Assembly: GCF_013371215.1 (NCBI RefSeq)
Contig: NZ_JABWMH010000003.1
Location: 1-64,000 of the forward strand
Direction: 5' to 3'
From: Parasphingorhabdus flavimaris
Lineage (GTDB): Bacteria > Pseudomonadota > Alphaproteobacteria > Sphingomonadales > Sphingomonadaceae
DNA: 64,000 nt
A program made the translations under genes and the position numbers. Under the pieces are notes generated by a model. That model saw nothing but the letters and a program-made list of their open reading frames with translations. It had not been told where the DNA came from and made no database searches. Shown in pieces: positions 16,581-57,117 of this stretch (its first letter is position 1; every line of letters begins with the position of its first letter).

Positions 16581-16880
16581 ATGAGCTATACTAACACGCT
16601 GACCCGCGCCGACCTGGCCGAAACGATGAACCGGCTGGTAGGCTTGTCGCGTGCCGACAGCGCTGTCATGGTTGAATCAATCCTTGATCACATGATTGAT
16701 GCGCTTGTCGATGGCGAAAATGTCAAGATTTCCGGTTTCGGAACCTTCGTATTGCGCGACAAGGGAGAGCGGACCGGGCGCAATCCCAAGACCGGTATCG
16801 AAGTTCCGATCGCGCCGCGCCGGGTGCTGACCTTCCGCGCCAGCCAAACGATGCGTGACAGGATCATCGCCGCCGGTTAA
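16581..16880 (+). CDS. ihfA: Integration host factor subunit alpha
   Basis: A 99-residue DNA-bending protein: [13 protein letters not shown] at the start, then [12 protein letters not shown], and [17 protein letters not shown], the minor-groove-binding arm with its intercalating Pro. Length and motifs are those of IHF alpha. GGAAGA is well spaced from the ATG at 16581; the frame is open six codons upstream to a TTG. It is followed 30 bp later by a MerR-type regulator, an order usual in alphaproteobacteria. Confidence 0.96.
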
Positions 16881-42836: not shown

Positions 42837-44378
42837 ATGAAACAGCTAAGCGCACTTGATGCCATGTTCGCCTACACCGAAACCCCGAATACGCCGATGC
42901 ATATCGGGCAATTGCTGATTTATGATCCCTCGACAGCCCCCGGCGGCAAGGTCGGTTTCAAAGATATATTGCGCTATATCGAGGGGCGTCTCGATGGTGC
43001 GCGGATATTTCGCCAGAAGCTGGTGCGAGTGCCGCTGGATCTCGATCATCCCTATTGGGTCGATGACGAAAATTTCGATCTCGAATTTCACGTCCGCCAT
43101 ATTGCCTTGCCCAAGCCTGGCGACTGGCGGCAATTGTGCATCCAGGCGGCGCGCATCTATGCCCGGCCGATGGATATGAACAAACCGCTCTGGGAATATA
43201 CGGTGATTGAGGGGCTCGACAATGTCGAAGGCGTTCCCAAGGGCAGCTTTGCCATGCTGCACAAGATGCATCATGCGGCGATCGACGGACAGTCCGGCCT
43301 GCAAATGACGCTGGCGCTGCACGACCTGGACGCCAAGATGAAACCGCGCAAATTCGACATGCAATTCGAACCGGAAAAAGACCCCAATCCGATGGCGTTG
43401 CTCGCCAAGGCCCAGTTCAACAATATCGCCAATCCGGTGCGCGGATTGAAGAATCTGCAGAAACTCCTGCCGATGCCGAAACGGCTGCTCGATGTGCAGC
43501 GCGAGTTCCGGCAGCGGGATGATGCCAAGGGCAGCATTCCAAAAACCCGCTTCAACAAGAAACTCAGCCCGCACCGGGTGTTCGACGGTCGCGAATTTAC
43601 CCTCGCGGATATCAAGAATATCCGCGAGGCCTTCCCCGGCGCGACGGTAAACGATGTGATGATCGCGGTGGTCAGCGGATCGATGCGCGGATATCTGAAT
43701 GCCAAGAAGGACCTGCCGGAAAAGACCCTGAAAATCGGTGCGCCTGTTTCGGTAAGGACGGACGACGACAAGGATAGCGCCGGCAATCAGGTCACGATGA
43801 TGCAGGTCGGTGTCGGCACCCATCTCGCCGATGCGGGCGACCGGATGAAATTCATCATGGAGGAAACCCGGCGCTCGAAAGCGATGACCCAGGCGATGGG
43901 GGCGAAGACGCTTATGGAATTGTCGGGTGCCATGCCGGCCGGACTGACCGCTGCGGGCACCAAGATGATGGTCCGCGCCGGGATCGTCGACCGGCTGAAT
44001 CCGGCGGTGAATACGGTTGTTACCAATGTCCCCGGTCCGATGGTGCCGATGTATTTCGCCGGTGCCGAACTGGTCAAATCCTTCGGCATGGGAATATTGG
44101 CCGAAGGGCAGGGTCTGTTCCACGTCGTGACCAGCTATAATGGCAATGTCATCCTGACCTTTCTTGCGGACCGTAATATCATGCCCGATCCGGAATTTTA
44201 TGCGGAGTGCATCGTGAAGAGCTTTTCCGACCTCACCGCTGCGGCGACCAAAGAAAAGACGGCGGCCGCGCGAAAGGCCGGGGAAAAGAAAGCCAAGCAA
44301 CCGAAAAAGCCGAAGAAACGGGTTTCCGCTTCTGCCGCTACGGCAGGCAGGACCAGAGCGAAAACGACTGGCAAATAG
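42837..44378 (+). CDS. Wax ester synthase/diacylglycerol acyltransferase (WS/DGAT)
   Basis: A 513-residue acyltransferase. The catalytic motif HHxxxDG is present as MHHAAIDGQSG (about residues 145-155), and the C-terminal half has the family's NTVVTNVPGPMVPMYFAGAE segment (N-x-P-G-P). It would esterify fatty alcohols or diacylglycerol with acyl-CoA to make storage lipid. The last ~50 residues are a Lys/Ala-rich tail. GAGGGAATTGTC precedes the ATG. It heads the acyl-CoA region that follows. Confidence 0.92.
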   Translation: MKQLSALDAMFAYTETPNTPMHIGQLLIYDPSTAPGGKVGFKDILRYIEGRLDGARIFRQKLVRVPLDLDHPYWVDDENFDLEFHVRHIALPKPGDWRQLCIQAARIYARPMDMNKPLWEYTVIEGLDNVEGVPKGSFAMLHKMHHAAIDGQSGLQMTLALHDLDAKMKPRKFDMQFEPEKDPNPMALLAKAQFNNIANPVRGLKNLQKLLPMPKRLLDVQREFRQRDDAKGSIPKTRFNKKLSPHRVFDGREFTLADIKNIREAFPGATVNDVMIAVVSGSMRGYLNAKKDLPEKTLKIGAPVSVRTDDDKDSAGNQVTMMQVGVGTHLADAGDRMKFIMEETRRSKAMTQAMGAKTLMELSGAMPAGLTAAGTKMMVRAGIVDRLNPAVNTVVTNVPGPMVPMYFAGAELVKSFGMGILAEGQGLFHVVTSYNGNVILTFLADRNIMPDPEFYAECIVKSFSDLTAAATKEKTAAARKAGEKKAKQPKKPKKRVSASAATAGRTRAKTTGK

Positions 44379-44423: not shown

Positions 44424-44441
44424 GTTAATCATTCGATTAAC
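44424..44441. promoter_or_regulatory. Shared 18-bp palindrome, copy 1
   Basis: GTTAATC-ATTC-GATTAAC, a perfect 7-bp palindrome with a 4-bp centre, ending 15 bp before the SDR ATG. Two similar sites lie at 50041 and 56076. Confidence 0.6.
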
Positions 44442-44455
44442 AAAAGGGACTCGTC

Positions 44456-45370
44456 ATGAGCAAAGTAGAATTTAACGACCGCGTCGCCATCGTCACGGGT
44501 GCAGGCGCCGGTCTGGGCCGCGAACATGCCAAGGAATTGGCGCGCCGTGGCGTGAAGGTTGTCGTCAACGATTTCGGCGGTGCCCGCGATGGCACCGGCG
44601 GTTCCGCCACCGTGGCCGAGCAGGTCGTCGCTGAAATCGAAGCCGAGGGCGGCGAAGCCATGGCAGCCGGTTGCAGCGTTACCGACATGCCAGCGGTTGA
44701 AAAGATGGTCGCCGATGCGATCGCCAAATGGGGCCATGTCGACATTCTGGTCAACAATGCCGGCGTTTTGCGCGATAAAAGCTTCCACAAAATGTCGATG
44801 GAAGACTTCAGCTTCGTCATGGACGTTCATCTCACCGGTAGTGCCAATTGCACCAAAGCGGTCTGGGATCATATGCGCGAACGCCAATATGGACGGATCG
44901 TGATGACCACATCGTCGACCGGTCTCTATGGCAATTTCGGCCAGGTCAACTATGGCGCAGCAAAGCTCGCTCTGGTCGGCATGATGAACAGCCTGCACCA
45001 GGAAGGTGCCGGCAAGGGCATCCACACCAATTGCATTTCTCCCGTCGCGGCTACCCGGATGACCGAAGATTTGATGCCGGAAGAAGCGTTGAAAATGCTG
45101 GTGCCCGAAGCAGTAACCCCTGCCGTGGTCTATCTGTGCAGCGATGGCGCGCCATCGAAGACGATCCTGACCGCAGGAGCCGGTGGCTATGCCGCCGCGA
45201 AAATTCTCGAAACCGAAGGAATCTGGTTGCCGGAAGACCAGCGCAGCGCCGAAGCAATCGCAGAGAATATCGACCAGATTCTCGATGAAACCGGCATGCA
45301 GGAATATGCCAATGGCGGCGGACAGGGCGGAAAATTCTTCCGTCGCATGCAGGAAGTCATGAAGGGCTAG
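44456..45370 (+). CDS. SDR oxidoreductase, MFE-2 3-hydroxyacyl-CoA dehydrogenase-like
   Basis: A 304-residue NAD(P)-dependent dehydrogenase. The cofactor motif TGAGAGLGREHAKELARRG (about 14-32), the NNAG motif (NNAGVLRDKSF) and the catalytic Ser-Tyr-Lys (TTSSTGLYG; VNYGAAK) are intact. VVVNDFGGARDG and the long C-terminal segment resemble the dehydrogenase part of peroxisomal MFE-2 and its bacterial relatives acting on 3-hydroxyacyl-CoA. A MaoC hydratase gene follows, which would supply that substrate. A palindrome shared with two other genes lies just upstream. Confidence 0.88.
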   Translation: MSKVEFNDRVAIVTGAGAGLGREHAKELARRGVKVVVNDFGGARDGTGGSATVAEQVVAEIEAEGGEAMAAGCSVTDMPAVEKMVADAIAKWGHVDILVNNAGVLRDKSFHKMSMEDFSFVMDVHLTGSANCTKAVWDHMRERQYGRIVMTTSSTGLYGNFGQVNYGAAKLALVGMMNSLHQEGAGKGIHTNCISPVAATRMTEDLMPEEALKMLVPEAVTPAVVYLCSDGAPSKTILTAGAGGYAAAKILETEGIWLPEDQRSAEAIAENIDQILDETGMQEYANGGGQGGKFFRRMQEVMKG

Positions 45371-45390
45371 TGAAGTCATATACCATTGCG

Positions 45391-45459
45391 CGTTTGTCCC
45401 GAGCTTGTCGAAGGAGCGCGCGCAATGGCCAATGGTTCGACAGGCTCACCATGAACGGG
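45391..45459. repeat. REP-like inverted repeat, copy 1
   Basis: GAGCTTGTCGAAGG and the inverted arm TTCGACAGGCTCA with about 20 bp between. This copy is the most diverged of five. It lies between the SDR and MaoC genes. Confidence 0.75.
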
Positions 45460-45481
45460 CCGGGAATGAAGGAGAAACAAT

Positions 45482-45940
45482 ATGCCAGTGATTAAACCAA
45501 GTGAACTCGAAGCCTGGAAAGGCAAGGAAGTGGGCGTGTCGGAATGGTTCGAAGCCAGCCAGGACCGGATCAACAAATTTGCCGACTGCACCGAGGATCA
45601 CCAGTTCATCCATATCGATGAAGAAAAAGCCAAGGCGACGCCTTTTGGCGGAACCATCGCTCATGGTCTCCTGACTCTCTCGCTGCTGCCGGCCATGTCT
45701 TATGGCTGCACATTGGGCCTCGAAGGCACGGTGATGGGCATCAACTATGGTTTTGACAAGGTCCGTTTCCTCAACCCGGTCCGCGCCGGATCAAAAGTCC
45801 GCGCCCGCCATGTACTGGTCGACGCGGTTGAAAAGCAGCCCGGCCGCTGGTTGATGACCTATGATGTTACCGTCGAAATCGACGGCATCGAAACACCGGC
45901 TCTGATCGCCCGTTCGCTGGCGATGATCGTGGTCGGCTAA
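45482..45940 (+). CDS. MaoC family (R)-enoyl-CoA hydratase-like protein
   Basis: A 152-residue hotdog-fold protein. The catalytic pair appears as DCTEDHQFIHIDEEKAKA (Asp and His) followed by GGTIAHGLLTLSLLP, the MaoC/hydratase 2 motif. Hydrates trans-2-enoyl-CoA, and with the preceding SDR would carry out two consecutive beta-oxidation steps. GGAG precedes the ATG. Confidence 0.92.
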   Translation: MPVIKPSELEAWKGKEVGVSEWFEASQDRINKFADCTEDHQFIHIDEEKAKATPFGGTIAHGLLTLSLLPAMSYGCTLGLEGTVMGINYGFDKVRFLNPVRAGSKVRARHVLVDAVEKQPGRWLMTYDVTVEIDGIETPALIARSLAMIVVG

Positions 45941-45963
45941 GGCCAGTTCGACAAATTGTCTGC

Positions 45964-45999
45964 AAGGGGCTCCGGACTGGTTCCGGGGGCCCTTTTTTA
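45964..45999 (+). terminator. Intrinsic terminator after maoC
   Basis: AAGGGGCTCCGGA pairs with TCCGGGGGCCCTT (one mismatch, one wobble) and is followed by six T. Confidence 0.75.
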
Positions 46000-46105
46000 T
46001 GGTGTCTGCAGTGCAGCTTGCGTGAAGCGTGTTGCTAGACTAGTCCTTTTAAAGATATCGCGGAGCCCGAAAGGGCCGCGACTATGTTCTGGGGCGGAGT
46101 TTGCA

Positions 46106-47236
46106 ATGTCGATACGGCAGATCGCTGCGCTTCCCTATAAGGCTGATGAATCCGCAATGGATGCACCAGCCCGGATCATGTTGATCACGTCCCGTGAAAC
46201 CAGACGCTGGATCATTCCAAAAGGCAATATCGGATCAGGCCAGCAGCCCCACAGCGCCGCCGCTCAGGAAGCGGAAGAGGAGGCAGGCATATTGGGCTCA
46301 ACCTGTCCGACACCGCTGGGCAGCTATCGCTATCGCAAGAAAAAGCGCAACGGCGCCTCGGTCTGGATCGATGTCAGCGTCTTTCCCTTCGCCGTCACCG
46401 AGGAGCTGCCAACCTGGGACGAGCAGCATCAGCGGGAACGCCGCTGGTTCTCTCTCGAGGATGCCGCGGACGCGGTTGACGAAGAAGATTTGCGGGCCCT
46501 GATCCGCTCCTTTGGCGCGGCCGATTTCTGGGCCGCCACCCAGTCCACCAATATCATCGATACAGTCGCTCAAAAGACAGGGGTCAATATCATGTTTGCC
46601 TGGTTCCAACGCCTGCTTCCCGAGCAGGGAAATTTCTTTGACCTGTTTGAAAGGCACTCCGCAACGCTGGTGGCCGGTGCCGATGCGCTGGCGCGACTGC
46701 TCCAGGGCGGCAAGGGAATGGCTGATCGTGTTCGAGAAATCATAGACCGTGAACATGACGCCGATGAAATCACCCGTGAGGTCCTCAACACTGTCCGCCG
46801 GACCTTCCTTACGCCCTTTGATCGCAGCGCAATCACCAGCCTTATTGCTTCGATGGATGATGCGATTGACGAAATGCAGAAAACCGCCGGTGCCATCGAG
46901 CTTTATGACGTCGAGACTTTTGATCAGGAAATGATCGATATCGCTGCGATCATCGTCGATGCGGCGCGTCTGACAGCAGAGGCGATGCCCTTGCTGCGCG
47001 ATATAGCAGGCAATGGGGACCGCCTCCACGAACTGACCGAGCGGCTGGTCCGGATGGAGGGCCACGCCGACGAGATCCATGCAGCAGGACTGAAAAAGCT
47101 GTTTCAGGAACATGGCGAGAGCAATACCCTGCACTTCATCATCTGGCGTGAACTCTACCAGCATATGGAGCGGGTGGTGGACCGGTTCGAAGATGTCGCC
47201 AACGAGATCGACGGTCTCGTGATTGATCACGGCTGA
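46106..47236 (+). CDS. NUDIX-DUF47 fusion protein
   Basis: A 376-residue single frame. Residues 1-160 are a NUDIX hydrolase: the box GNIGSGQQPHSAAAQEAEEE (40-59) plus AGI has the key REUxEE Glu residues, but the first Glu and the Arg are Gln, as partly seen in the diphosphoinositol-polyphosphate group. Residues 163-376 are a whole DUF47/PhoU-like helical protein (MFAWFQRLLPEQGNFFDLFE), normally a separate 215-residue accessory of PiT transporters. No stop lies between. AGGGG precedes the internal ATG at 46592, so DUF47 could also be made alone. GGCGGAG precedes ATG 46106. The pit gene follows 14 bp later. Confidence 0.88.
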   Translation: MSIRQIAALPYKADESAMDAPARIMLITSRETRRWIIPKGNIGSGQQPHSAAAQEAEEEAGILGSTCPTPLGSYRYRKKKRNGASVWIDVSVFPFAVTEELPTWDEQHQRERRWFSLEDAADAVDEEDLRALIRSFGAADFWAATQSTNIIDTVAQKTGVNIMFAWFQRLLPEQGNFFDLFERHSATLVAGADALARLLQGGKGMADRVREIIDREHDADEITREVLNTVRRTFLTPFDRSAITSLIASMDDAIDEMQKTAGAIELYDVETFDQEMIDIAAIIVDAARLTAEAMPLLRDIAGNGDRLHELTERLVRMEGHADEIHAAGLKKLFQEHGESNTLHFIIWRELYQHMERVVDRFEDVANEIDGLVIDHG

Positions 47237-47250
47237 AGCGGCGCGACACC

Positions 47251-48252
47251 ATGGACAACAGCATCGCGTTTCCGATCCTTTTCGCGCTTATCGCGTTGGC
47301 GCTCGCCTTCGATTTTCTCAACGGCCTCCACGACGCGGCCAATTCGATCGCGACTGTGGTTTCGACCCGTCTGCTGTCGCCGGTCGCGGCGGTGGTTTTT
47401 GCCGCATGCGGCAATTTTGCGGCCTATTGGCTGGTCGGGCTGCAGGTCGCCGAGACCGTCGGCGAAGGCATTATCGACAAGGATGTGGTGACGCCCGCGG
47501 TTGTGTTCGGGGCGCTGGTCGGTGCGATGTTCTGGAACGTGCTGACCTGGCTCAAGGGAATCCCCTCTTCATCCAGCCATGCCCTGATCGGCGGACTGCT
47601 CGGTGCAGGTATTGCCCACGCCGGATTCGGCGCGGTGGAATCCTCCGGCACCACCAAGACGATGGCCGCCATTTTACTGTCGCCGATGATCGGGTTCATG
47701 ATTGCCATGCTTCTCATGCTGGCCACATCCTGGCTGTTCAAGCCGGTTCAGCCGCGAAAGGCGGAGGGCGTTTTCAAGGTCTTCCACCTGATGTCCTCGG
47801 CGGCCTATTCGATCAGCCATGGCGCCAATGACGCGCAAAAATCCATGGGCATTATCGCGGTCCTGCTATATTCAACCGGCTATCTCGGCGGGGAGTTTTC
47901 GGTTCCCGAATGGGTGGTCATCAGCTGTTATCTGGCGATATCTTTCGGAACGCTGTCCGGCGGCTGGCGGATCATCAAGACCATGGGTACCAAATTGACC
48001 AAGCTCGATCACCACAACGGCTTTTGTGCATCGACGGCGGGATCCGCGGTGGTGTTCGGAGCCTCGGCCATGGGCATCCCTGTGTCGACAACCCACGCCA
48101 TCACCGGCAGCGTCGTCGGGGTCGGGGCGGCAAGGCGGGCTTCGGCGGTACGCTGGAGCGTCGCCAGCCGGGTCGTCATGGCGTGGTTCATCACCATCCC
48201 GGCCAGCGCTGCGGTGGGCGCATTATTCTACTGGCTGACGCGACTGTTCTGA
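47251..48252 (+). CDS. pit: PiT-family inorganic phosphate transporter
   Basis: A 333-residue protein with about ten membrane helices. The two PiT signatures are present: FLNGLHDAANSIATVVSTR near the N-terminus and SHGANDAQKSMGI at about 190. GIPSSSSHALIGGLLGAG and GIPVSTTHAITGSVVGVG are the duplicated loops. It would take up phosphate as metal-phosphate using a cation gradient. Coupled to the NUDIX-DUF47 gene upstream. Confidence 0.95.
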   Translation: MDNSIAFPILFALIALALAFDFLNGLHDAANSIATVVSTRLLSPVAAVVFAACGNFAAYWLVGLQVAETVGEGIIDKDVVTPAVVFGALVGAMFWNVLTWLKGIPSSSSHALIGGLLGAGIAHAGFGAVESSGTTKTMAAILLSPMIGFMIAMLLMLATSWLFKPVQPRKAEGVFKVFHLMSSAAYSISHGANDAQKSMGIIAVLLYSTGYLGGEFSVPEWVVISCYLAISFGTLSGGWRIIKTMGTKLTKLDHHNGFCASTAGSAVVFGASAMGIPVSTTHAITGSVVGVGAARRASAVRWSVASRVVMAWFITIPASAAVGALFYWLTRLF

Positions 48253-48377
48253 AGGTCAGGCAAGGGGAGTTCGGCGATCTCGCGGCCAACTTAACGCGCA
48301 TCCGGAACACTAGCGCGTGGACTTTCACGAGATGATGTGAAAGGGGGTGTGGCATATATATTAACGGGAGAACGAGC

Positions 48378-49160
48378 GTGACGATGAAGACCTTATTTGA
48401 TGTCAGTGGCAAAGTTGCTGTGGTGACCGGCGGTTCCAGCGGCATTGGCGCTATGATGGCCCAGGGCCTGATCGAAAATGGCGCAAAGGTCTACATCACC
48501 GCCCGCAAGGAAGAGCGGCTGATGGCGAAAGCGGCCGAGCTTTCCGAACTGGGCGAGTGTATCGCCATCCCGGCCGACCTGTCCAATGTCGAGGGCATCG
48601 AGGCGCTGGTAGCAGTGGTCAGCGAACGCGAAGAGAAGATCGACATTTTGATCAACAATGCCGGCGCCAACTGGAGCGCACCGATCGAGGATTTTCCGGA
48701 GCAGGGCTGGGACAAGGTGATGGACATCAACATCAAGTCGATCTTCTTTGCCACGCAGAAATTCCTGCCGTTGCTGAAGGCGGCCGGAAACGCGGATGAT
48801 CCGGCGCGGGTGATCAATATCGCGTCAATCAACGGCATCCGCAATTCGGGAATGCCGACCTATGCCTATACCGCCAGCAAATCCGGCGTGATCAACCTGA
48901 CCGAACATCTGGCCACCGATCTCGCTTCCTACAATATCAACGTCAACGCGATCGCTCCGGGTTTCTTTCCGAGCAATATGACCAAACAGATTGTCGAGAA
49001 TGACGGCATGACGAAAATGGCGATATCGCAGATTCCCCGCGGCCGGATGGGCGCGCCGGAAGATATTGCCGGTACCGCACTTTATCTGTGCTCGCGCGCA
49101 TCGTCCTGGATGATCGGGCAGGCGCTGGTTCTGGACGGCGGGATGATTTCGCGACCCTGA
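48378..49160 (+). CDS. SDR family oxidoreductase
   Basis: A 260-residue protein. TGGSSGIGAMMAQGLIENGA (about 17-36), NNAGANWSAP, IASINGIR with Ser, and the catalytic Tyr-Lys in AYTASKSG are present, followed by APGFFPSNM. Resembles fabG-like or gluconate/rhamnolipid-type (RhlG-like) reductases; substrate unknown. GTG at 48378 has GGAG seven bases upstream and is preferred over the ATG at 48384. Confidence 0.88.
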   Translation: MTMKTLFDVSGKVAVVTGGSSGIGAMMAQGLIENGAKVYITARKEERLMAKAAELSELGECIAIPADLSNVEGIEALVAVVSEREEKIDILINNAGANWSAPIEDFPEQGWDKVMDINIKSIFFATQKFLPLLKAAGNADDPARVINIASINGIRNSGMPTYAYTASKSGVINLTEHLATDLASYNINVNAIAPGFFPSNMTKQIVENDGMTKMAISQIPRGRMGAPEDIAGTALYLCSRASSWMIGQALVLDGGMISRP

Positions 49161-49189
49161 ACGCACCCGGCCGGCCGGGGCCTGGCCGG

Positions 49190-49903
49190 TCAATGCTGGA
49201 TCAGGTCCGACAACCAGTCGATATCCAGCATATGGCGGGACGGCTTGTTCGGATCGACCAGCACGCGCAATTTTCTGTTGGCCATATATTCGGTGGGATC
49301 CACCCAGATGGAATCGCTCAAATATTGCTCAAGTTTGCCGGTAAACGGATTCTTGCCTTGGGCTACGACACGATAGGGATTGCGGCCATTGAGGCTTTGA
49401 CTGCGATCCCGTTCGACTTCGAGGAAATCGACCGAGAAAGCGGTTCCGTTTTCCCGCAGCCATGTTCTGGTCCGGCCCTTGTAGATCTCGCGATAAAACA
49501 AGGTTCCGCCAACCAGGGAAAATATTGCGCCGATACCGCTGAGGATCACAACGATGGCCCAGCGTCCCCAGAAGTCGTCGACAATCGCATCGGCCGGATT
49601 TTCCGGCGCATAGAGAAGATCGACTTCCTGCCCCTTTGAATAGCGCGGTGGACTGGAACTGACACGATCGACAAATTCATGCGACACCGCCCGGTCATCG
49701 GTGAAGCGTATGACCGCAGAATAGGTATAGCTTATGCTACCGTCATCATCCTGTCGCTTGCGGAGAAGATCGATAACCTGTCCGTCGGCCGTTTTCGCAC
49801 CGGCGATAAAGTCCCTCTGGTCAACATATAAATAGCTGGCAGCCGCGAGCATCGCGAGGCCGACCACCAGGAATATGCCGCCGACAGTCTTGAACAGATT
49901 CAT
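49190..49903 (-). CDS. DUF3592 membrane protein
   Basis: A 237-residue protein with an N-terminal membrane helix (GGIFLVVGLAMLAAASYLYV) and another at about 115-135. The part between (GQVIDLLRKR, YTYSAVIRFTDD, KGQEVDLLYAPENPADAIV) is the DUF3592 pattern, a beta-rich domain. Function unknown. It points against its neighbours. Confidence 0.85.
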   Translation of the reverse strand: MNLFKTVGGIFLVVGLAMLAAASYLYVDQRDFIAGAKTADGQVIDLLRKRQDDDGSISYTYSAVIRFTDDRAVSHEFVDRVSSSPPRYSKGQEVDLLYAPENPADAIVDDFWGRWAIVVILSGIGAIFSLVGGTLFYREIYKGRTRTWLRENGTAFSVDFLEVERDRSQSLNGRNPYRVVAQGKNPFTGKLEQYLSDSIWVDPTEYMANRKLRVLVDPNKPSRHMLDIDWLSDLIQH

Positions 49904-50040
49904 GGGTGTCTCCGTCGATCAGCCGGATTGCTGCCATGATCCGGAATCTAGCAGAGCTTGATCGGGATGGGAATGCCCGCCTGCGCTGCCACGCCTGCGA
50001 TATCGCCTTTTTCATGTTCGGGCCCCATTGCATTATGGGA

Positions 50041-50058
50041 TTTAATCGTTCAATTAAT
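50041..50058. promoter_or_regulatory. Shared 18-bp palindrome, copy 2
   Basis: TTTAATC-GTTC-AATTAAT, one arm position off perfect symmetry, 82 bp before the start of the first acyl-CoA dehydrogenase gene. Confidence 0.55.
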
Positions 50059-50140
50059 AATGCTAGTGATTCACACGGAATGGCAGGGCGGCAGACTCTG
50101 CTACCGATCTTTTGCATATAAGCCGTTTAGGAGCGACACC

Positions 50141-51355
50141 ATGGCCGACAAACCGAGTGCAGCCGAACTCAAGGATTATGCCGAACAGGCAGATGCCTGG
50201 TTCAAGGAAAATACGGTGCGTGATCCCGGCTTCATGCTGCCGCTGACCTTCATGGAAGTGTCGACCGACCAGCAGTTTGACTTTCTCCAGGACTGGCAGC
50301 GTAAAGTCTATGAAGCGGGCTATCTCGGCGCCAGCTGGCCGAAGGAATATGGCGGCGGCGGACTGCACAGCGAATATCAGCGGGTCGCAACCCGGGCGAT
50401 GAAGAAATATGACGCGCCGATCATGATCAACGCGATCGGCAATGGCTGGGCCGGACCGCTGATTCTCGATCTCGGCAGCGAGGAACAGAAGCAGAAATAT
50501 ATCAAGCCGATGCTCAGCGCCGAGGATATCTGGTGCCAGGGCTTTTCCGAACCGGAGAATGGCTCCGATCTCGGCAACGCACAGCTGAAAGCCGTAAAAG
50601 AGGGCGATGAATATGTCCTCAACGGTTCCAAGATCTGGACCTCGCTGGGTGACCGCGCGAAATATATGATCCTGCTGGCGCGCACCGATTTCGATGCGCC
50701 GAATAAATATGCCGGGCTCAGCTTCTTCCTCAATCCGATGAAGATCGACGGCATCACCACCAGCCGGATCAAGAAGCTGACCGGCGAATATGGCTTCGTC
50801 CAGACCTTCTTCACCGATGCCCGCATTTCCGCCGACTGCCTGTTCGGCGGCGAGGGCAACGGCTGGTCGATGGCGATGAAGACGCTCGAATATGAGCGTG
50901 GCGCCAAGGTCAAGCCGGTCGGTGGTTTCTTCGTCAAGGAACTGGACGTGATGGAAATTGTCGAACTGGCCAAAAATTCCGTCCGCAACGGCAAGCCTTT
51001 GCTCGATGATCCGGTGATGCGCGACAAGATGACGCAATATATGATCGATATCCAGGCGCTGAATCTCAACAACACCCGCCGCCGGATGCCGCAGCTGATG
51101 CAGGACCGGCCGATGGGGCTGCCGCTGATGAACAAGCTGGCGCGCACCGAACTGATCCGCGAGCTGACCGAATTCTCGCTGGCGTTCCAGGGTACCAAGG
51201 CGGGCTATTATGTCGGCGATGAAAATGCGGTCGACGACGGTTACTGGCATCGCAGCTATCTCAACAGTTTTTCGGCCACGATTGGTGGAGGCACTTCGGA
51301 GATCCAGCGCAATATTGTCGCCGAGCACGCGCTCGGATTGCCGAAAACAAGATAA
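50141..51355 (+). CDS. Acyl-CoA dehydrogenase (first of pair 1)
   Basis: A 404-residue flavoprotein of the FadE type. GFSEPENGSDLGNAQ and KIWTSLGDRAKYM are the family's FAD/substrate signature and the C-terminus has TIGGGTSEIQRNIVAEHALG. The position of the MCAD catalytic Glu is Gly here (GGGTSE), so the base must sit elsewhere in the fold, as in some long-chain types. AGGAG precedes the ATG at 50141. It is followed, beyond a REP-like repeat, by a shorter partner dehydrogenase; such pairs can form mixed tetramers. Confidence 0.92.
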   Translation: MADKPSAAELKDYAEQADAWFKENTVRDPGFMLPLTFMEVSTDQQFDFLQDWQRKVYEAGYLGASWPKEYGGGGLHSEYQRVATRAMKKYDAPIMINAIGNGWAGPLILDLGSEEQKQKYIKPMLSAEDIWCQGFSEPENGSDLGNAQLKAVKEGDEYVLNGSKIWTSLGDRAKYMILLARTDFDAPNKYAGLSFFLNPMKIDGITTSRIKKLTGEYGFVQTFFTDARISADCLFGGEGNGWSMAMKTLEYERGAKVKPVGGFFVKELDVMEIVELAKNSVRNGKPLLDDPVMRDKMTQYMIDIQALNLNNTRRRMPQLMQDRPMGLPLMNKLARTELIRELTEFSLAFQGTKAGYYVGDENAVDDGYWHRSYLNSFSATIGGGTSEIQRNIVAEHALGLPKTR

Positions 51356-51371
51356 TAATCAGAACAGAAAC

Positions 51372-51434
51372 CCGTTCGCCCTGAGCTTGTCGAAGGGTCT
51401 TTATAAAGTGCTTCGACAGGCTCAGCACGAACGG
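51372..51434. repeat. REP-like inverted repeat, copy 2
   Basis: CTGAGCTTGTCGAAGGG and the inverted arm CTTCGACAGGCTCAG between the two acyl-CoA dehydrogenase genes of pair 1. Confidence 0.85.
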
Positions 51435-51453
51435 CGTGAAAGACGAGGATAAG

Positions 51454-52578
51454 ATGGATAATCTAGGCACAATCGGAACCACCGAAGAGCAGATCGAACT
51501 GATGGATGTGGCGACCAATTTCTGTCGCGACAAAAGCCCGATCGACAAGGTGCGCGGAATGATTGACGACGATCTGGGCTATGATCCCGATATCTGGCGG
51601 GAGATCGGCGAGCTCGGATGGCTGGCGATCGCGATTCCCGAAGCGCATGACGGGGTGGGCCTGTCGATGGCCGAAGTCGTGCCGATTGCCGAGCAAATGG
51701 GCCGCAATCTGATGAGCAATCCCTTTGGTTCGACGACGCTGGCGGCGCAGGCTCTGCTGGCCGGCGGCAGCGAAGCGCAGCAGGCCGCATGGTTGCCGAA
51801 GATTGCCGCGGGTGCAGCGGCAACGCTGGCGCTGCGTGAAGATAATGGCGACTGGGACCTGTCCAATATCGAGGCGGCCGGTACCGTGAGCGGTGACAGC
51901 GTCAGCCTGTCCGGCAAGAAGCAGCTGGTGCTCTGGGCCGACAGCGCGGAACTTATCATCGCCTCGGTGAAGATCGACGGTGCGGTCCGCTTTGCCCTGA
52001 TCGAACGGTCGGCACTGAGCGACAACGCAATGCGCCGGGAAACGGTGATCGACGAAACTGCGCGCAGCTATGAAGTGACTCTCGACGGCGTGACCGTCTC
52101 GACCGATGCTCTGTTTGACGCAGGCCGGACCCGCGAGACGCTGGAGAAAATCGAGCTGGCTGCCGGCCTGATCCACGCCGCCGAAATGACTGGCGGCGCG
52201 CAATCGGTGATCGATTATACGGTGGAATATCTCAAGACCCGCAAGCAGTTCGGCAAGATTATCGGCAGCTATCAGGCGCTGAAACATCCGACCGTGAACA
52301 ATTATGTCGAATATGAAAAAGCGCGGACGCATCTGTACAGCGCCGCGCACAGCTGGGGCGAGCAGGGCCGCGGCGAGGTTGCCGTCCGCATGGCGGCCGC
52401 GCAATCCCACTCGAGCTATTCCACCGCTGCGGATCGCGCGATCCAGTTTCACGGCGGCTTCGGTTTCACCCACGACTGCGACGCGCAATTGCACCGGCGC
52501 AAGGCGATCTTGTCAGGTGCGCTGATCGGCGATGCGGCTTATCAGCGGTCGAAACTGGCCAATCTGTTGTTCGATTAG
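51454..52578 (+). CDS. Acyl-CoA dehydrogenase (second of pair 1)
   Basis: A 374-residue member with a short, weakly conserved central part (residues 110-215) lacking the usual SEP-x-GSD motif, and the FAD-contact segment FHGGFGFTHDCDAQLHRR near the C-terminus. YLKTRKQFGKIIGSYQALKH is typical of the family. Together with the preceding longer subunit this fits alpha-beta heterotetrameric dehydrogenases known from steroid and other polycyclic catabolism; this is inference. GAGGATAAG precedes the ATG at 51454. Confidence 0.9.
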   Translation: MDNLGTIGTTEEQIELMDVATNFCRDKSPIDKVRGMIDDDLGYDPDIWREIGELGWLAIAIPEAHDGVGLSMAEVVPIAEQMGRNLMSNPFGSTTLAAQALLAGGSEAQQAAWLPKIAAGAAATLALREDNGDWDLSNIEAAGTVSGDSVSLSGKKQLVLWADSAELIIASVKIDGAVRFALIERSALSDNAMRRETVIDETARSYEVTLDGVTVSTDALFDAGRTRETLEKIELAAGLIHAAEMTGGAQSVIDYTVEYLKTRKQFGKIIGSYQALKHPTVNNYVEYEKARTHLYSAAHSWGEQGRGEVAVRMAAAQSHSSYSTAADRAIQFHGGFGFTHDCDAQLHRRKAILSGALIGDAAYQRSKLANLLFD

Positions 52579-52589
52579 GGTAAAATTTG

Positions 52590-52660
52590 CCGTTCGTCCT
52601 GAGCTTGTCGAAGGACAGCGCTAGTCGATAGGTGCACTTCGACAGGCTCAGTGCGAACGG
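52590..52660. repeat. REP-like inverted repeat, copy 3
   Basis: CGTTCGTCCTGAGCTTGTCG with inverted arm CTTCGACAGGCTCAGTGCG, between acyl-CoA dehydrogenase and crotonase genes. Confidence 0.85.
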
Positions 52661-52685
52661 GTGTGAACCAATAAGGAGAAAAAAT

Positions 52686-53444
52686 ATGTCTGAAGTACTC
52701 ACCGAGATCCAGGACGGTTTCATCATCGTCACCATCAACCGGCCCGACGCCAAAAACGCGATGACCAAGGCGGCAGCCGAAGGCATCCGCGCGGCGATGG
52801 AGCAGCTCGACAATGACAACAGCCTCAACGCCGGCATCCTCACCGGCGCTGGCGGGACATTCTGTTCCGGCATGGATCTCAAGGGATTTCTGCGCGGTGA
52901 AACGCCATCGGTCAAAGGCTATGGCTTTGGCGGGATCACCGAAAAGGGTCCGGAAAAGCCACTGATCGCCGCGGTCGAAGGCTATGCGCTGGCCGGCGGG
53001 CTAGAACTGGCTCTGGCCTGTGATCTGTGCGTTGCCAACGTCAACGCGAAATTCGGCATTCCCGAGGTCAAGCGCAGCCTGGTGGCGGCAGCGGGCGGCG
53101 TGATCAAGCTGCAGCAACTGGTCGGCAAGCGGGTCGCGATGGAATGGGCGCTGACCGGCGACTTCTTCTCCGCGCAGCGCGCCTATGAAGTGGGCTTCGT
53201 TAACCGGGTGACCGAGGGCGCTGCGATTGACGCGGCGATCGAACTGGCGACCACGGTGGCGGCGAACGGCCCGCTGGCGCTGAAAGCGACGAAGAAGATC
53301 ATCAACGAAAGCTATGACTGGACCAGCGAGGAAGCGTGGAAGAAACAGGCTGAAATCACTGCACCGGTGTTCACCTCCAAGGATGCGCAGGAAGGCTCGC
53401 TCGCCTTCGCCCAGAAGCGCAAGCCCGAATGGAAGGGTGAATAA
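52686..53444 (+). CDS. Enoyl-CoA hydratase/isomerase family protein (crotonase)
   Basis: A 252-residue crotonase. INRPDAKNAMTKAAAEGI, LTGAGGTFCSGMDLKGF (first oxyanion hole) and VEGYALAGGLELALACDLCVA (second oxyanion hole region, read as EGYALAGGLELAL) are clear, as is FGIPEVKRSL. The second catalytic Glu position of ECH is likely the Glu in PEVKR. Hydrates or isomerises an enoyl-CoA made by the preceding dehydrogenases. AAGGAG precedes the ATG. Confidence 0.92.
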   Translation: MSEVLTEIQDGFIIVTINRPDAKNAMTKAAAEGIRAAMEQLDNDNSLNAGILTGAGGTFCSGMDLKGFLRGETPSVKGYGFGGITEKGPEKPLIAAVEGYALAGGLELALACDLCVANVNAKFGIPEVKRSLVAAAGGVIKLQQLVGKRVAMEWALTGDFFSAQRAYEVGFVNRVTEGAAIDAAIELATTVAANGPLALKATKKIINESYDWTSEEAWKKQAEITAPVFTSKDAQEGSLAFAQKRKPEWKGE

Positions 53445-53453
53445 GCCCGACCC

Positions 53454-54413
53454 ATGGCAAGCAATGATATCGTAGACCAGTGGGCAGCGTCGCATGACCT
53501 GCCCGCATGGTTCGTGCAGGCGATGGACGTGCCGCGCGAGGAAGCCTTTGTCGAAGTAGACGGGCACAAGGTGCATTATTTTCGATGGGGTCAGCGCGGC
53601 AAGCCGCCGCTGCTGATGACCCACGGCTTTCTCGCCCACGCGCGCTGCTTTGCCTTTATCGCGCCTTTCCTCGCAGAAGACCATGATATCATCGCTTATG
53701 ACCTGGCGGGGATGGGCGACAGCGAGATGATCGACGATTGCAACGGCGAGAAGCGTGCCAGAGGCATGGTTGCGGTGGCCGATGCTCTCGATCTGTTTGC
53801 CGGTCCGGTGAAGCCCAAGATCATTGCCCACAGCTTTGGTTCCGGCGTGGCCCTGACCGCGATGGAAATGGCGGGAGAGCGGTTTGGCGGTCTGATCATC
53901 TGTGACCTGATGATCATGCGACCCGAAAAGCTTGTCGCCCATTTTAGCCGCGGCGGCGGCCCTCCCGGTTCCGGCAAGTCGGACAAGCCCAATAATGTCT
54001 ATGCCGATTACGAGACCGCGCGCGGGCGCTTTGTTCTGGCCCCGCCGCAAGATGTACAGACTCCGTTCCTGCTCGAATATATGGCCTATCACAGCATGCG
54101 TGCGGTCGAGGATGGCTGGTCGTGGAAATTTGACCCGATGGTCTTCCACCGCAGCGAGAATGACCAGAGGCAATGGATGGAGGCACCGCAACGGATCGCC
54201 GATCTTCCGCACCGGCTGGCGATTGTCTATGGCGAGAAAAGCACATTGTTCGATCGCGACAGCGCTGCCTATCTGCGCGAACTGGGTGGTGATAATATTC
54301 CGATGATCGCCGTGCCCAATGCGAAACATCACCTGATGCTCGACGAGCCGCTCGCATTTGTCGCCGCTCTGCGCTCTGTTCTGACGATGTGGGAAGTTGA
54401 TGCTGGCGACTGA
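53454..54413 (+). CDS. Alpha/beta hydrolase
   Basis: A 319-residue alpha/beta hydrolase. MTHGFLAHAR is the oxyanion-hole segment, AHSFGSG holds the nucleophile Ser in an A-H-S-x-G elbow, and the catalytic His is in NAKHHLMLDEP near the C-terminus; the acidic residue is probably in YGEKSTLFDRD. Ten bases after the crotonase stop, so in the same operon. Substrate unknown; an ester or acyl thioester is plausible. Confidence 0.88.
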   Translation: MASNDIVDQWAASHDLPAWFVQAMDVPREEAFVEVDGHKVHYFRWGQRGKPPLLMTHGFLAHARCFAFIAPFLAEDHDIIAYDLAGMGDSEMIDDCNGEKRARGMVAVADALDLFAGPVKPKIIAHSFGSGVALTAMEMAGERFGGLIICDLMIMRPEKLVAHFSRGGGPPGSGKSDKPNNVYADYETARGRFVLAPPQDVQTPFLLEYMAYHSMRAVEDGWSWKFDPMVFHRSENDQRQWMEAPQRIADLPHRLAIVYGEKSTLFDRDSAAYLRELGGDNIPMIAVPNAKHHLMLDEPLAFVAALRSVLTMWEVDAGD

Positions 54414-54575
54414 AGGCTGTTTTGCGTCCCGTAGCTGATCGCCAGATGAACCATATCGGGCTCTTGCGACAATATGGTACAAAAAACCGGGAATCTGACA
54501 AAGGCCTGCGACAGGTCTCCCCTATTTCTGTCTGTGACGCCGCAGTTGGCGCCGGATAGAAAAAGGGAATTGAAG

Positions 54576-54974
54576 ATGAAAAAGTTTCTGATGGCTTTGG
54601 CAGTGACAACAATGGCGGTGTCCCCGGTGGTGACCGCTCAGGCTCAGGCTGCCCAGCACAAGACGGTCGAGAAGCGCGTGACCCAGAAAAATGGCAAACG
54701 GGTTGTGACAAAGACCACGACGACCAGAAATACCAAGCAGGATCGCAACGACAACCGGCGCTATGCCGCTGTTTCCCAGAAGAAATGGGCCAAGGGCCAG
54801 CGGTTCGACCGGCGCTATGCGACCAATTACCGGGTGATCGACAATCCCCGCGCCTATCGCCTGTCCAGCGCACCGCGTGGATACCAGTGGGTGCGGTCGG
54901 GTAATGATGCGGTGCTGATCGCGATAACCAGCGGCCTCATCGGAGCGGTTATCGGAAACGCGATTGCGCGCTGA
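54576..54974 (+). CDS. Small RcnB-family exported protein
   Basis: A 132-residue protein. A signal peptide ends TAQAQA; a Lys/Arg/Thr-rich linker follows, then the RcnB-like domain (SAPRGYQWVRSGNDAVLIAITSG, split as SAPRGYQWVRSGNDAV) with a hydrophobic Gly-rich end, LIGAVIGNAIAR. GGGAATTGAAG precedes the ATG at 54576. Possible metal homeostasis role by family only. Confidence 0.85.
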   Translation: MKKFLMALAVTTMAVSPVVTAQAQAAQHKTVEKRVTQKNGKRVVTKTTTTRNTKQDRNDNRRYAAVSQKKWAKGQRFDRRYATNYRVIDNPRAYRLSSAPRGYQWVRSGNDAVLIAITSGLIGAVIGNAIAR

Positions 54975-55000
54975 ACCGAATGATCAATCCACAATTAGAC

Positions 55001-55032
55001 AAAAGCCCCCGGAAGCGATTCCGGGGGCTTTT
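55001..55032. terminator. Bidirectional intrinsic terminator
   Basis: AAAAGCCCCCGGAA-GCGA-TTCCGGGGGCTTTT, a perfect 14-bp stem with a 4-nt loop between two convergent genes. It ends in four T on both strands. Confidence 0.92.
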
Positions 55033-55040
55033 CTGTTCGT

Positions 55041-56018
55041 TCAGGCAGCCATGAATCCCTTGAGCCGTTGATTGATGATCTGGTCCGCCTCGGCCATGAT
55101 CCGGTCGATCAGTTCCTGGCATGTCGGGATATCGTTGATCAGGCCGGCAACCATGCCGCAGCTCCATGCGCCAGCATCCATTGTGCCTTCTTTCATGATC
55201 TTGGGATAGACGCCCGCGACCTGTTCGATCACGTCGGAGAATTGCAGGTCTGCGCCTTTTTCCTTTTCGATTTCGAGCAGGCGTTCGACAGCGCTATTGG
55301 TCAGCACCCGTTCTGTGTTGCGCAGGGGGCGCATCACGAGTCGGGTGTCGAGTTCGCTGGCCGCGACGATCGCGTCTTTCACATTCTGGTGCACCGGTGC
55401 TTCCTTGGTGGCGATGAAGCGGGTGCCCATGTTCATGCCTTCCGCGCCCATCGCGAGCGAGGCAACGAGGCTGCGGCCGTCGGCCTGGCCACCGGAGGAA
55501 ACGAACGGAATGTCCAGCTCGTCGGCAGCGCGGGGCAGCAGGATCATGTTCGGGATATCGTCTTCGCCGGGGTGGCCGCCGCATTCGAATCCGTCGACCG
55601 AGACCGCGTCACAGCCGATGCTCTGGGCCTTCAGCGCGTGGCGGACGGCGGTGCATTTGTGGATCACCTTGATGCCGGCGTCGTGCAATGCGGGCAGCAC
55701 CTGAACCGGGTTGTTGCCGGCGGTTTCGACGACCTTGACGCCGCCTTCGATGATCGCCTTGACCATGCCTTCATAATCGGGCGAGTTGACCACCGGCAGG
55801 AAGGTCAGGTTCACGCCGAACGGCTTGTCTGTCATGTCCCGGCATTTGGCGATTTCGTCGGCCAGTGCGGCGGCGGAAGGCTGGGTCAGTGCAGTGATGA
55901 TACCGAGGCCACCGGCGTTCGACACAGCAGCTGCGAGCTCGGCGAATCCGACATAATGCATGCCGCCCTGAATGATCGGATGTTCGATACCGAATAGCTC
56001 TGTAATGCGTGTTTTCAT
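55041..56018 (-). CDS. Nitronate monooxygenase-like flavoprotein
   Basis: A 325-residue FMN TIM-barrel protein. IEHPIIQGGMHYVGFAELAAA at the N-terminus (read as HPIIQGGMHYV), VDGFECGGHPGEDD, and GQADGRSLVASLAMGAEGMNMGTRF (phosphate-binding GGQADG loop) fit the 2-nitropropane dioxygenase/enoyl reductase group. Relatives in acyl-CoA loci may act as flavin reductases rather than on nitronates. The ATG at 56018 is preferred over 56054. A shared palindrome lies 58 bp upstream. Confidence 0.88.
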   Translation of the reverse strand: MKTRITELFGIEHPIIQGGMHYVGFAELAAAVSNAGGLGIITALTQPSAAALADEIAKCRDMTDKPFGVNLTFLPVVNSPDYEGMVKAIIEGGVKVVETAGNNPVQVLPALHDAGIKVIHKCTAVRHALKAQSIGCDAVSVDGFECGGHPGEDDIPNMILLPRAADELDIPFVSSGGQADGRSLVASLAMGAEGMNMGTRFIATKEAPVHQNVKDAIVAASELDTRLVMRPLRNTERVLTNSAVERLLEIEKEKGADLQFSDVIEQVAGVYPKIMKEGTMDAGAWSCGMVAGLINDIPTCQELIDRIMAEADQIINQRLKGFMAA

Positions 56019-56075
56019 GGACTTAGCTCCTGTTACTGGAAGGATTGGAAGCATGTCTGCTCCCTTCCGGAATTA

Positions 56076-56093
56076 TTTAATCGCGCGATTAAC
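56076..56093. promoter_or_regulatory. Shared 18-bp palindrome, copy 3
   Basis: TTTAATC-GCGC-GATTAAC, six-bp perfect arms with a 4-bp centre, lying 58 bp before the nitronate-monooxygenase-like gene (minus strand). It overlaps the last codons of the preceding minus-strand gene. Confidence 0.6.
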
Positions 56094-57117
56094 TAGCAAC
56101 CCATTGACCGGTTGTCACGCCTTTCCAGATATCGTCGGGCGACGTTACGGCGAGCGCTTCTCCGAGCCGTTTCGACCAAAGATGTTCATTGCCCAGCGCA
56201 TCGCGCCAGGCCCAAAGGCGGCGGGTATAATGGTGCAGATCATATTCCTGCGTATAGCCCATCGCGCCGTGGACCTGATGGAAGGGCACGGTGACCGCCT
56301 CTACGCTGTGACCGATCTGGACCTTGGCGACCACCGCCTCGTGCCAGGCCTGTTCCGGATCGTCGCTGTGGCGGGCGATGGCGCTGGCCGCCTGCGTGGC
56401 CGCCATGGTCGCGGCGGCGCATTCGGACGCGGCGACCGCCAGCTGCTGCTGGATCGCCTGGAATTTCGACAGCGGCCGGCCGAATTGTTCGCGCTGGGTG
56501 ACATAGTCGATCGACAGGCCCAGAGCGCTCTCCATCGCCGCTGCCATCTGCACGGCGCGAACGGTCAGGATCAGCGCTTCGATTCCGCGGCGGGAGAGAT
56601 CGGTCTTCGCCGATTGCTCTGCCAGATGTCCGGAAAAGATGAACTGCGTCATGCCATCGGGTGACAGCGATTCTTCCGGCGAGCGGACGGCGACGCGGTT
56701 GTCGAACAGCGAGATTTCGTGATGCGCCTCGTCGAACAGGACGATCTTGTCGGCGTGCATGCCAAAGGGAATGTCGGCGCTCGGGGTGTGACCGCTGAGC
56801 GCAAAGCTGGCGCTGCCGTCTGCCGGGGAAAGACCGGCCCGGTCGAGCATCCAGTTGGCGATCAATGTTTCGGCAAATGGCACCGGGGAAGCGGCCTGCG
56901 CGGAAGCCCAGATCGCGCCAAAGACCTCGTCATGGTCGGCACCAAAGCCGCCATTGGCTTCGCTGACCCAGGCCAACGGCAGCCCGTTTTCGGTCAGCGC
57001 GTCCCAGAGCGCCTGCGGATATTGGCCCGCTTCGGCTTCGTGCGGGACGTCGCGTGCGCACAGGTCGGTATAGATTTTCGTGGCCGTTTCGGCGACCATG
57101 CCTTGTGTGTTTATCAT
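56089..57117 (-). CDS. Acyl-CoA dehydrogenase (second of pair 2)
   Basis: A 342-residue short member. The central SEPGAGSD-type motif is absent; YVTQREQFGRPLSKFQAIQQ and VHGAMGYTQEYDLHHYTRR are present. Together with the longer dehydrogenase upstream (57236-58390, same strand), a REP-like repeat between, it repeats the arrangement of pair 1. Start at the ATG at 57117. The regulatory palindrome overlaps its stop region. Confidence 0.88.
   Translation of the reverse strand: MINTQGMVAETATKIYTDLCARDVPHEAEAGQYPQALWDALTENGLPLAWVSEANGGFGADHDEVFGAIWASAQAASPVPFAETLIANWMLDRAGLSPADGSASFALSGHTPSADIPFGMHADKIVLFDEAHHEISLFDNRVAVRSPEESLSPDGMTQFIFSGHLAEQSAKTDLSRRGIEALILTVRAVQMAAAMESALGLSIDYVTQREQFGRPLSKFQAIQQQLAVAASECAAATMAATQAASAIARHSDDPEQAWHEAVVAKVQIGHSVEAVTVPFHQVHGAMGYTQEYDLHHYTRRLWAWRDALGNEHLWSKRLGEALAVTSPDDIWKGVTTGQWVAS

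Follow-up and report, generated by a model that had tools for sequence, protein, structure and literature searches.

Three copies of one palindrome stand before genes of acyl-CoA catabolism in a 64,000-nucleotide stretch of the Parasphingorhabdus flavimaris genome (contig NZ_JABWMH010000003.1, here C3, positions 1-64000; called the window throughout) and are probably operators of a TetR-type repressor, an orthologue of Saro_1072 of Novosphingobium aromaticivorans, released by a ligand of the acyl-CoA type. The palindromes appear to be real sites of one large regulon, shared by a group of bacteria from water and soil and undescribed as far as the literature was searched. The case is built on computed properties: the motif itself, its enrichment and position, the functions of the target genes, conservation in relatives, and co-occurrence with this TetR gene.

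The palindromes, read directly from the window sequence, are GTTAATCATTCGATTAAC (44424-44441), TTTAATCGTTCAATTAAT (50041-50058) and TTTAATCGCGCGATTAAC (56076-56093), letter for letter as reported in a first-pass annotation of the window. Counted from the 16-bp core, they lie 15 bp before the start codon of a short-chain dehydrogenase/reductase (SDR; 44456), 83 bp before that of an acyl-CoA dehydrogenase (ACAD; 50141), and 58 bp before that of a nitronate monooxygenase (NMO)-like protein (56018, minus strand); spacings of 15, 82 and 58 bp had been given, correct within one base, and the 18-bp form of the site yields values one smaller. The third site shares bases with the stop codon of the acyl-CoA dehydrogenase gene that lies upstream of it (56089-57117, minus). 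The statement that nothing similar occurs elsewhere in the window holds for TTAATCN4GATTAA at up to one mismatch but not at two, where further matches appear at 16684 and 40893. The total of five matches at up to two mismatches compares with a shuffle mean of 1.19 (sd 1.06) and is equalled by none of 100 shuffles.

Across the genome (3.35 Mb, 8 contigs), 22 sites are found at up to one mismatch, versus one for the control, the same pattern read backwards. The looser matches suggest a TTAA-N8-TTAA core with pyrimidines beside the left arm and purines beside the right, and the strict form TTAAYYN4RRTTAA, with no mismatch, has 29 sites versus one control. An 18-base search at three mismatches (199 versus 87 controls) was too loose for counting. 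At the base adjoining the fixed part, left free in the pattern, 116 of 156 half-sites (78 sites, three genomes) have G, and the consensus is therefore widened to TTTAAYYGNNCRRTTAAA, written TTTAAYYG-NN-CRRTTAAA. The motif is thus present as first described, within a wider consensus and at 29 strict genomic sites instead of three.

Placement was scored for every strict site, misses included, of P. flavimaris (29) and two relatives, G134 (29) and G066 (20), with gene starts taken from our own simple codon-usage caller and not from a published gene finder. A correctly oriented gene start lies between -60 and 350 bp of 76 of the 78 sites, at a median distance of 35.5 bp (n=76), and for 71 sites the gene start follows within 100 bp. 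The figures for random positions are 33% and 14%, respectively, a background that is not neutral, being drawn from 17 stretches of the P. flavimaris genome picked around sites.

The genes behind the sites serve mainly CoA-thioester catabolism. By Pfam and NCBIfam, the P. flavimaris targets include acyl-CoA dehydrogenases, AMP-dependent ligases, thiolases, enoyl-CoA hydratases (ECH), SDRs, CaiB CoA-transferases, carboxyltransferases, Zn-alcohol dehydrogenases (Zn-ADH) and the NMO-like gene. A Pfam tally of the nearest gene, taken at 76 sites of the three genomes, yields ACAD 12, thiolase 5, AMP-binding, ECH, NMO, Zn-ADH and AAA 4 each, carboxyltransferase, CaiB and APH 3 each, and others fewer. 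P. flavimaris has 25 genes with an ACAD N-terminal domain, ten of which, by our reading, belong to units headed by a strict site. The genome-wide scan suggested earlier thus bears the proposal out: the motif exceeds chance, and the genes downstream are biased toward CoA-thioester catabolism.

The candidate regulator is a TetR-type protein of 209 aa encoded at C3:71720-72349. Its gene is the last of a thiolase-SDR-ECH-TetR series, all on one strand with gaps of 35-114 bp, which is headed by TTTAATCGGTCAGTTAAA, 35 bp before the thiolase. The annotation had noted that the window encodes no TetR protein and placed the regulator at a distance; the gene does lie outside the window, but just 7.7 kb past its end and inside a unit of the regulon. 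A regulator of the TetR type, also proposed there, is indicated. The protein matches TetR_C_9 (PF14514) at 1.1e-48 and 165 bits (cut-off 25.3). Its closest solved relative is 2QTQ/2RHA (phmmer 6.6e-80, residues 12-208), i.e., Saro_1072, released in 2007, and by sequence comparison the two are orthologues: full-length similarity and the thiolase-SDR-ECH-TetR order are both found, with a few loci, e.g., L164, lacking ECH or neighbours. The fold was compared using an AlphaFold model of a 96%-identical orthologue (L086, pLDDT 90.5). The top fold matches of this model are TetR structures: the Saro_1072 structures come first, at 62-63% identity and a TM-score of 0.85-0.90 by query length, followed by PfmR, Bacillus subtilis FadR with and without stearoyl-CoA, KstR2 and other TetR proteins. 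Among 28 orthologues, residues 45-58 of the helix-turn-helix (HTH) region are invariant, and the C-terminal part is less conserved (0.75 versus 0.86). The genome-wide search for candidate regulators was confined to the TetR family. Of the 16 P. flavimaris TetR genes found with PF00440, a list from which the 209-aa regulator is absent, one has a weak, poorly palindromic three-mismatch match within 1.5 kb, and all 16 were set aside.

The link between the site and the TetR unit recurs in relatives. A contig scan with the TetR alignment, of which the best 80 of 274 relatives were kept, provides 80 TetR-centred loci (1.43 Mb in total) from Parasphingorhabdus, Sphingorhabdus, Novosphingobium, two Sphingopyxis bins and other Sphingomonadales. 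These loci hold 100 strict sites versus no controls. Of 71 thiolase orthologues whose upstream sequence is long enough, 69 have a strict site at most 200 bp upstream; in the printed sequence of the two exceptions (L137, L148), the site has a single mismatch. For the ACAD at 50141-51355, the site is exact in 16 of 20 orthologues and has one mismatch in the other four, and for the AMP-ligase it is present in 15 of 42; none of 11 other neighbouring genes has a strict site within 200 bp upstream. In many Sphingorhabdus loci, ACAD/ECH and AMP-ligase/aldehyde dehydrogenase genes (with a cytochrome P450 gene in some) stand together behind the ACAD site, followed by the thiolase unit. G066 also has a site before its paired acyl-CoA dehydrogenase unit (L222).

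Conservation of the SDR and NMO-like sites was checked in the 250 bp upstream of homologues from 32 chosen genomes, some of which, at 50-60% identity, are perhaps not orthologous. In genomes with the TetR gene, 18 NMO loci include four exact sites (G232, G134, G123, G195) and two with one mismatch (G156 at 24 bp, G066 at 188 bp). Among 20 SDR loci, the site is exact in G232, of the same genus, and has one mismatch in G066, G171, G125, all at a distance nearly equal to that in the window, and in G156, at 20 bp. In genomes without the TetR gene, no site at up to one mismatch precedes any of 10 NMO and 10 SDR homologues. Conservation upstream of orthologues, the check proposed in the first-pass annotation, is thus near-universal for the thiolase unit and good for the ACAD, but uneven for the SDR and NMO-like genes.

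A single set of 247 genomes of the order served for the searches with the protein and with the motif; by hand tally, 186 of these genomes are of the same family. With orthologues defined by at least 55% identity, 33 of the 186 have the regulator and 153 do not. At least four strict sites are present in 31 of the 33 and in none of the 153. Strict sites total 493 in the 33 genomes (controls 51), a mean of 14.9 versus 0.14 in the 153 others. Nine genomes of the family with just a 31-39% relative of the regulator (G042, G086, G120, G122, G139, G140, G203, G207, G246) have 0-1 sites, and G010, from another family and with a relative in the same range, has two, equal to its control. A class-wide search of 289 genomes, few of this family, added to P. 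flavimaris itself four distant relatives at 32-37%. Shared descent explains part of the correlation between regulator and motif, which the test statistics overstate.

The promoter layout suggests how the sites may act. In all 69 site-bearing thiolase promoters, a TTGACN hexamer ends 15 (21 cases), 16 (45) or 17 bp (3) before TTAA; the left arm would therefore replace the -10 element, a repressor position. At the ACAD 50141 promoter, TTGCAW precedes TTTAAT by 7 bp, a spacing also seen by eye in the printed relatives, and the operator would therefore fill the space up to the -10 element. In the proposed mechanism, the repressor (Saro_1072 or its 209-aa orthologue) would bind operator DNA such as TTTAATCGNNCGATTAAA and the TTTAAYYG-NN-CRRTTAAA palindromes; a dimer on these palindromes, which lie across or between the promoter elements, would exclude RNA polymerase. 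During substrate breakdown, a small ligand (an acyl-CoA or a related CoA-thioester intermediate is the most likely) would bind the C-terminal domain and the repressor would leave, turning on together some 25-30 units for CoA-thioester activation and oxidation. The TetR gene itself lies behind an operator, which implies feedback: from within its own thiolase-SDR-ECH-TetR unit, the regulator would control itself. In a bolder version, to which we give somewhat less than an even chance, the Saro_1072 group acts as a clade-wide master repressor and responds to a single late CoA-thioester intermediate that many ring and branched acids have in common. If true, such a repressor would open some 30 dispersed units at once, whereas elsewhere in Proteobacteria separate regulators (FadR, PsrA, FadP, LiuR) split the role.

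Several observations weigh against the TetR-type repressor. Its TetR_N domain (PF00440) scores 18.4 bits against a cut-off of 24 (E 0.0019), and no strict site directly precedes the TetR gene in any of 79 loci. G200 and G191 have the TetR gene yet few strict sites (one and two), and controls are high in G063, G130 and G208 (14, 11 and 5 versus 25, 20 and 16 sites). The 33 orthologue genomes fall in 9 genera and are clumped by phylogeny, so that any gene marking the clade would correlate with the motif. The set of targets changes between genomes: most other genera lack the SDR and NMO sites, and a one-mismatch site at C3:78420, in the interval between CaiB and thiolase-like genes, has no strict counterpart in 32 relatives (CaiB 0/32). 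Some targets are not acyl-CoA genes and several are of unclear role; they include AAA ATPases and, in G134, a LepA-like gene (labelled by eye). Strict sites precede the AAA ATPase gene, MoxR-like by eye, by 66, 64 and 18 bp in P. flavimaris (L203), G134 (L210) and G066 (L181), respectively. A MarR-like gene, recognised by eye, is among the three genes after TetR in 14 of 29 loci, all from Novosphingobium or near it (L135, L140-L143, L146, L148, L149, L151, L155, L160, L161, L164, L165). Certainty is further lowered by the steps that we infer, i.e., dimer binding, repression, operon structure and the class of ligand, the last by analogy with known fold relatives and from the targets.

The regulator could be rightly identified and yet govern steroid C/D-ring breakdown alone, as KstR2 does in actinobacteria, which is unlikely. 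The targets do resemble the steroid C/D-ring gene set, in which paired acyl-CoA dehydrogenases, an NMO-like protein, thiolase, SDR, ECH and AMP-ligase have counterparts. KstR2 is among the fold matches, and the ACAD at 50141-51355 is nearest to PDB 4x28, which we take to be a steroid side-chain enzyme. The steroid-only reading is weakened by the models for IpdE2, EchA19, steroid thiolase and CasG, which match below their cut-offs (IpdAB lay outside the search), by the P450, which is nearest to 3tkt and P450terp, and by the carboxyltransferases, CaiB enzymes and Zn-ADHs that the regulon also includes.

It is quite unlikely that another regulator of the clade, e.g., the MarR-like neighbour in Novosphingobium, binds the motif and that the TetR gene is just a co-transcribed member of the regulon. 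Clade-restricted presence fails to separate the genes of the clade from one another, the restriction of the candidate search to one family leaves room for such a protein, and regulators can be regulon members, as is a TetR-like gene of G134 with its own site (L167). The gene saro_1073 is termed a MarR in the available excerpt of PMC10725011. The other 15 of the 29 loci, including the window's own group and Sphingorhabdus, have no MarR-like gene among the next three, and most have the thiolase site. The link between site and TetR unit (69/71) is the most constant of all, the HTH region is invariant and the operator nearly so, and none of the 16 PF00440 TetR genes of P. flavimaris has a good site within 1.5 kb. 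For Novosphingobium, the MarR-like gene stays a rival.

An activating role of the TetR protein at the site-headed promoters, alone or combined with repression, is also very unlikely. Some TetR-family proteins activate, and at a few sites the start codon is 90-275 bp away; in the best-conserved promoter, by contrast, the operator takes the -10 place behind TTGAC, where a repressor would sit. Chance AT-rich inverted repeats, terminators or CtrA-like sites (TTAA-N7-TTAA) can be dismissed despite the TTAA-rich form and counts close to controls in many genomes of the order's other families, given the 29 sites versus one control, the N8 spacing, the conserved placement just before start codons and the failure of all 153 same-family genomes without the TetR gene to reach four sites.

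The TetR-type repressor proposed here has counterparts in kind: BkaR/Fad35R, KstR2, FadR, PfmR, FadP and PsrA all belong to the TetR type and control acyl-CoA metabolism. The operator of KstR2 differs from the present one, and KstR2, although a fold match (4w97), has 18% identity in the fold alignment. B. subtilis FadR and Thermus thermophilus PfmR are likewise TetR-fold matches (3whb, 3whc, 3vpr; FadR also with stearoyl-CoA), at 18-24% identity. Published work is cited here from the portions of each paper available. In actinobacteria, KstR2 is a TetR regulator of CoA-thioester catabolism (PMC3068626). Mycobacterial BkaR/Fad35R is of the TetR type, has acyl-CoA catabolic targets and a TTA/TAA-armed palindrome (PMC3920632), and its DNA binding is lowered by palmitoyl-CoA (PMC4418694). 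Its core, GTTA-N-T-N4-A-N-TAAC, has differently spaced arms which, by eye, the present sites do not fit, and in the part of the paper available its regulon lies mostly around bkaR, unlike the dispersed sites described here (PMC3920632). EdcR of Caenibius tardaugens, from the same bacterial order, is a TetR repressor of steroid catabolism but has a TetR_C_11 domain and a different proposed operator, TnnCnnTACnAnTnGTAnnGnnA (PMC8700777). A Caenibius bile-salt TetR (PMC12882949) and PheR of the IclR family (PMC13273656) were set aside, their proposed operators in the accessible text being others. FadP, PsrA, LiuR and LiuQ control broad fatty-acid or branched-chain acyl-CoA regulons in Proteobacteria, FadP and LiuQ being described as unique to betaproteobacteria; none of the regulators in the available part of that study is of the present type, a comparison made without motifs (PMC5343134).

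The present regulator thus appears to work like the known acyl-CoA TetR controllers but with its own operator and in a distinct sequence group. No described function, operator or regulon for Saro_1072, nor any paper on the present regulon, was found among the papers listed in the literature searched, whose coverage excludes most subscription journals; among the public records found, Saro_1072 is represented by its structure alone, and both PDB codes were found only in PMC2685735, a crystallography-software paper. Of the papers listed as containing the two half-sites of the palindrome, only the one on bkaR had a relevant title. The system is ordinary in kind and valuable in detail, and the evidence for the identity of the regulator is good but indirect. 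The result provides Saro_1072, with a structure released in 2007, with a probable function, an operator and a list of targets, offers a handle on how sphingomonads, degraders of pollutants and steroids, switch on acyl-CoA catabolism, and provides an operator that could become a biosensor part.

Table 1. Predicted operators and the genes around them in the window (positions from its first nucleotide).
Feature	Position	Strand	Remarks
Predicted operator GTTAATCATTCGATTAAC	44424..44441	.	Precedes SDR/MaoC unit
SDR, target gene	44456..45370	+	Pfam adh_short 8.6e-48
MaoC-like dehydratase	45482..45940	+	Pfam MaoC 3.5e-25; 111-bp gap after SDR
Candidate -35 element TTGCAT	50028..50033	+	7 bp before TTTAAT; by eye
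Predicted operator TTTAATCGTTCAATTAAT	50041..50058	.	Precedes paired acyl-CoA dehydrogenase unit
Acyl-CoA dehydrogenase, target gene	50141..51355	+	Pfam ACAD domains; nearest PDB chain 4x28, 1.8e-38
Second acyl-CoA dehydrogenase, 50141 unit	51454..52578	+	Pfam, scanned from 51436
Enoyl-CoA hydratase/isomerase, 50141 unit	52686..53444	+	Pfam ECH_1 7.6e-51, scanned from 52632
Alpha/beta hydrolase, 50141 unit	53454..54413	+	Pfam Abhydrolase_6 7.5e-18
Nitronate monooxygenase/FabK-like protein, target gene	55041..56018	-	Pfam NMO 8.6e-60, scored on a longer open reading frame starting at 56054
Predicted operator TTTAATCGCGCGATTAAC	56076..56093	.	Precedes NMO-like gene; overlaps stop of ACAD 56089-57117

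Among the genes in Table 1, the MaoC-like dehydratase is possibly the second gene of the SDR unit; in G134, a gene that is MaoC-like by eye is headed by its own site (L217). The second acyl-CoA dehydrogenase matches the pimD_small and IpdE2 models, and the NMO-like protein the FabK model, in each case under the cut-off of the model.

Further observations concern the fringe of the regulon. The TetR-like gene of G134 at L167 has its strict site 15 bp upstream, with a divergent second gene 57 bp away. One-mismatch sites of P. flavimaris at L028 (C2:42831, CTAATCGCTCGATTAA) and L030 (C2:839992, CTAATCGCGCGATTAA) lie 136 and 215 bp, respectively, before genes for TonB-dependent receptors, which may belong to the regulon as uptake genes. 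Two genera that lack the motif encode a 36-38% relative of the regulator about 3.5 kb from an NMO-like gene (G140:C5:1019271-1024312, G042:C1:475450-480422); these pairs possibly represent a sister regulon with another operator.

Within the window, 47 bp separate the 44424 operator from the end of a gene of the WS_DGAT type (wax ester synthase/DGAT; 42837-44378), which lies on the same strand. Intergenic translations near 52600, 57100 and 58400 share phrases such as 'FDKLRTNG' and 'RTELVEV', which suggests a dispersed intergenic repeat.

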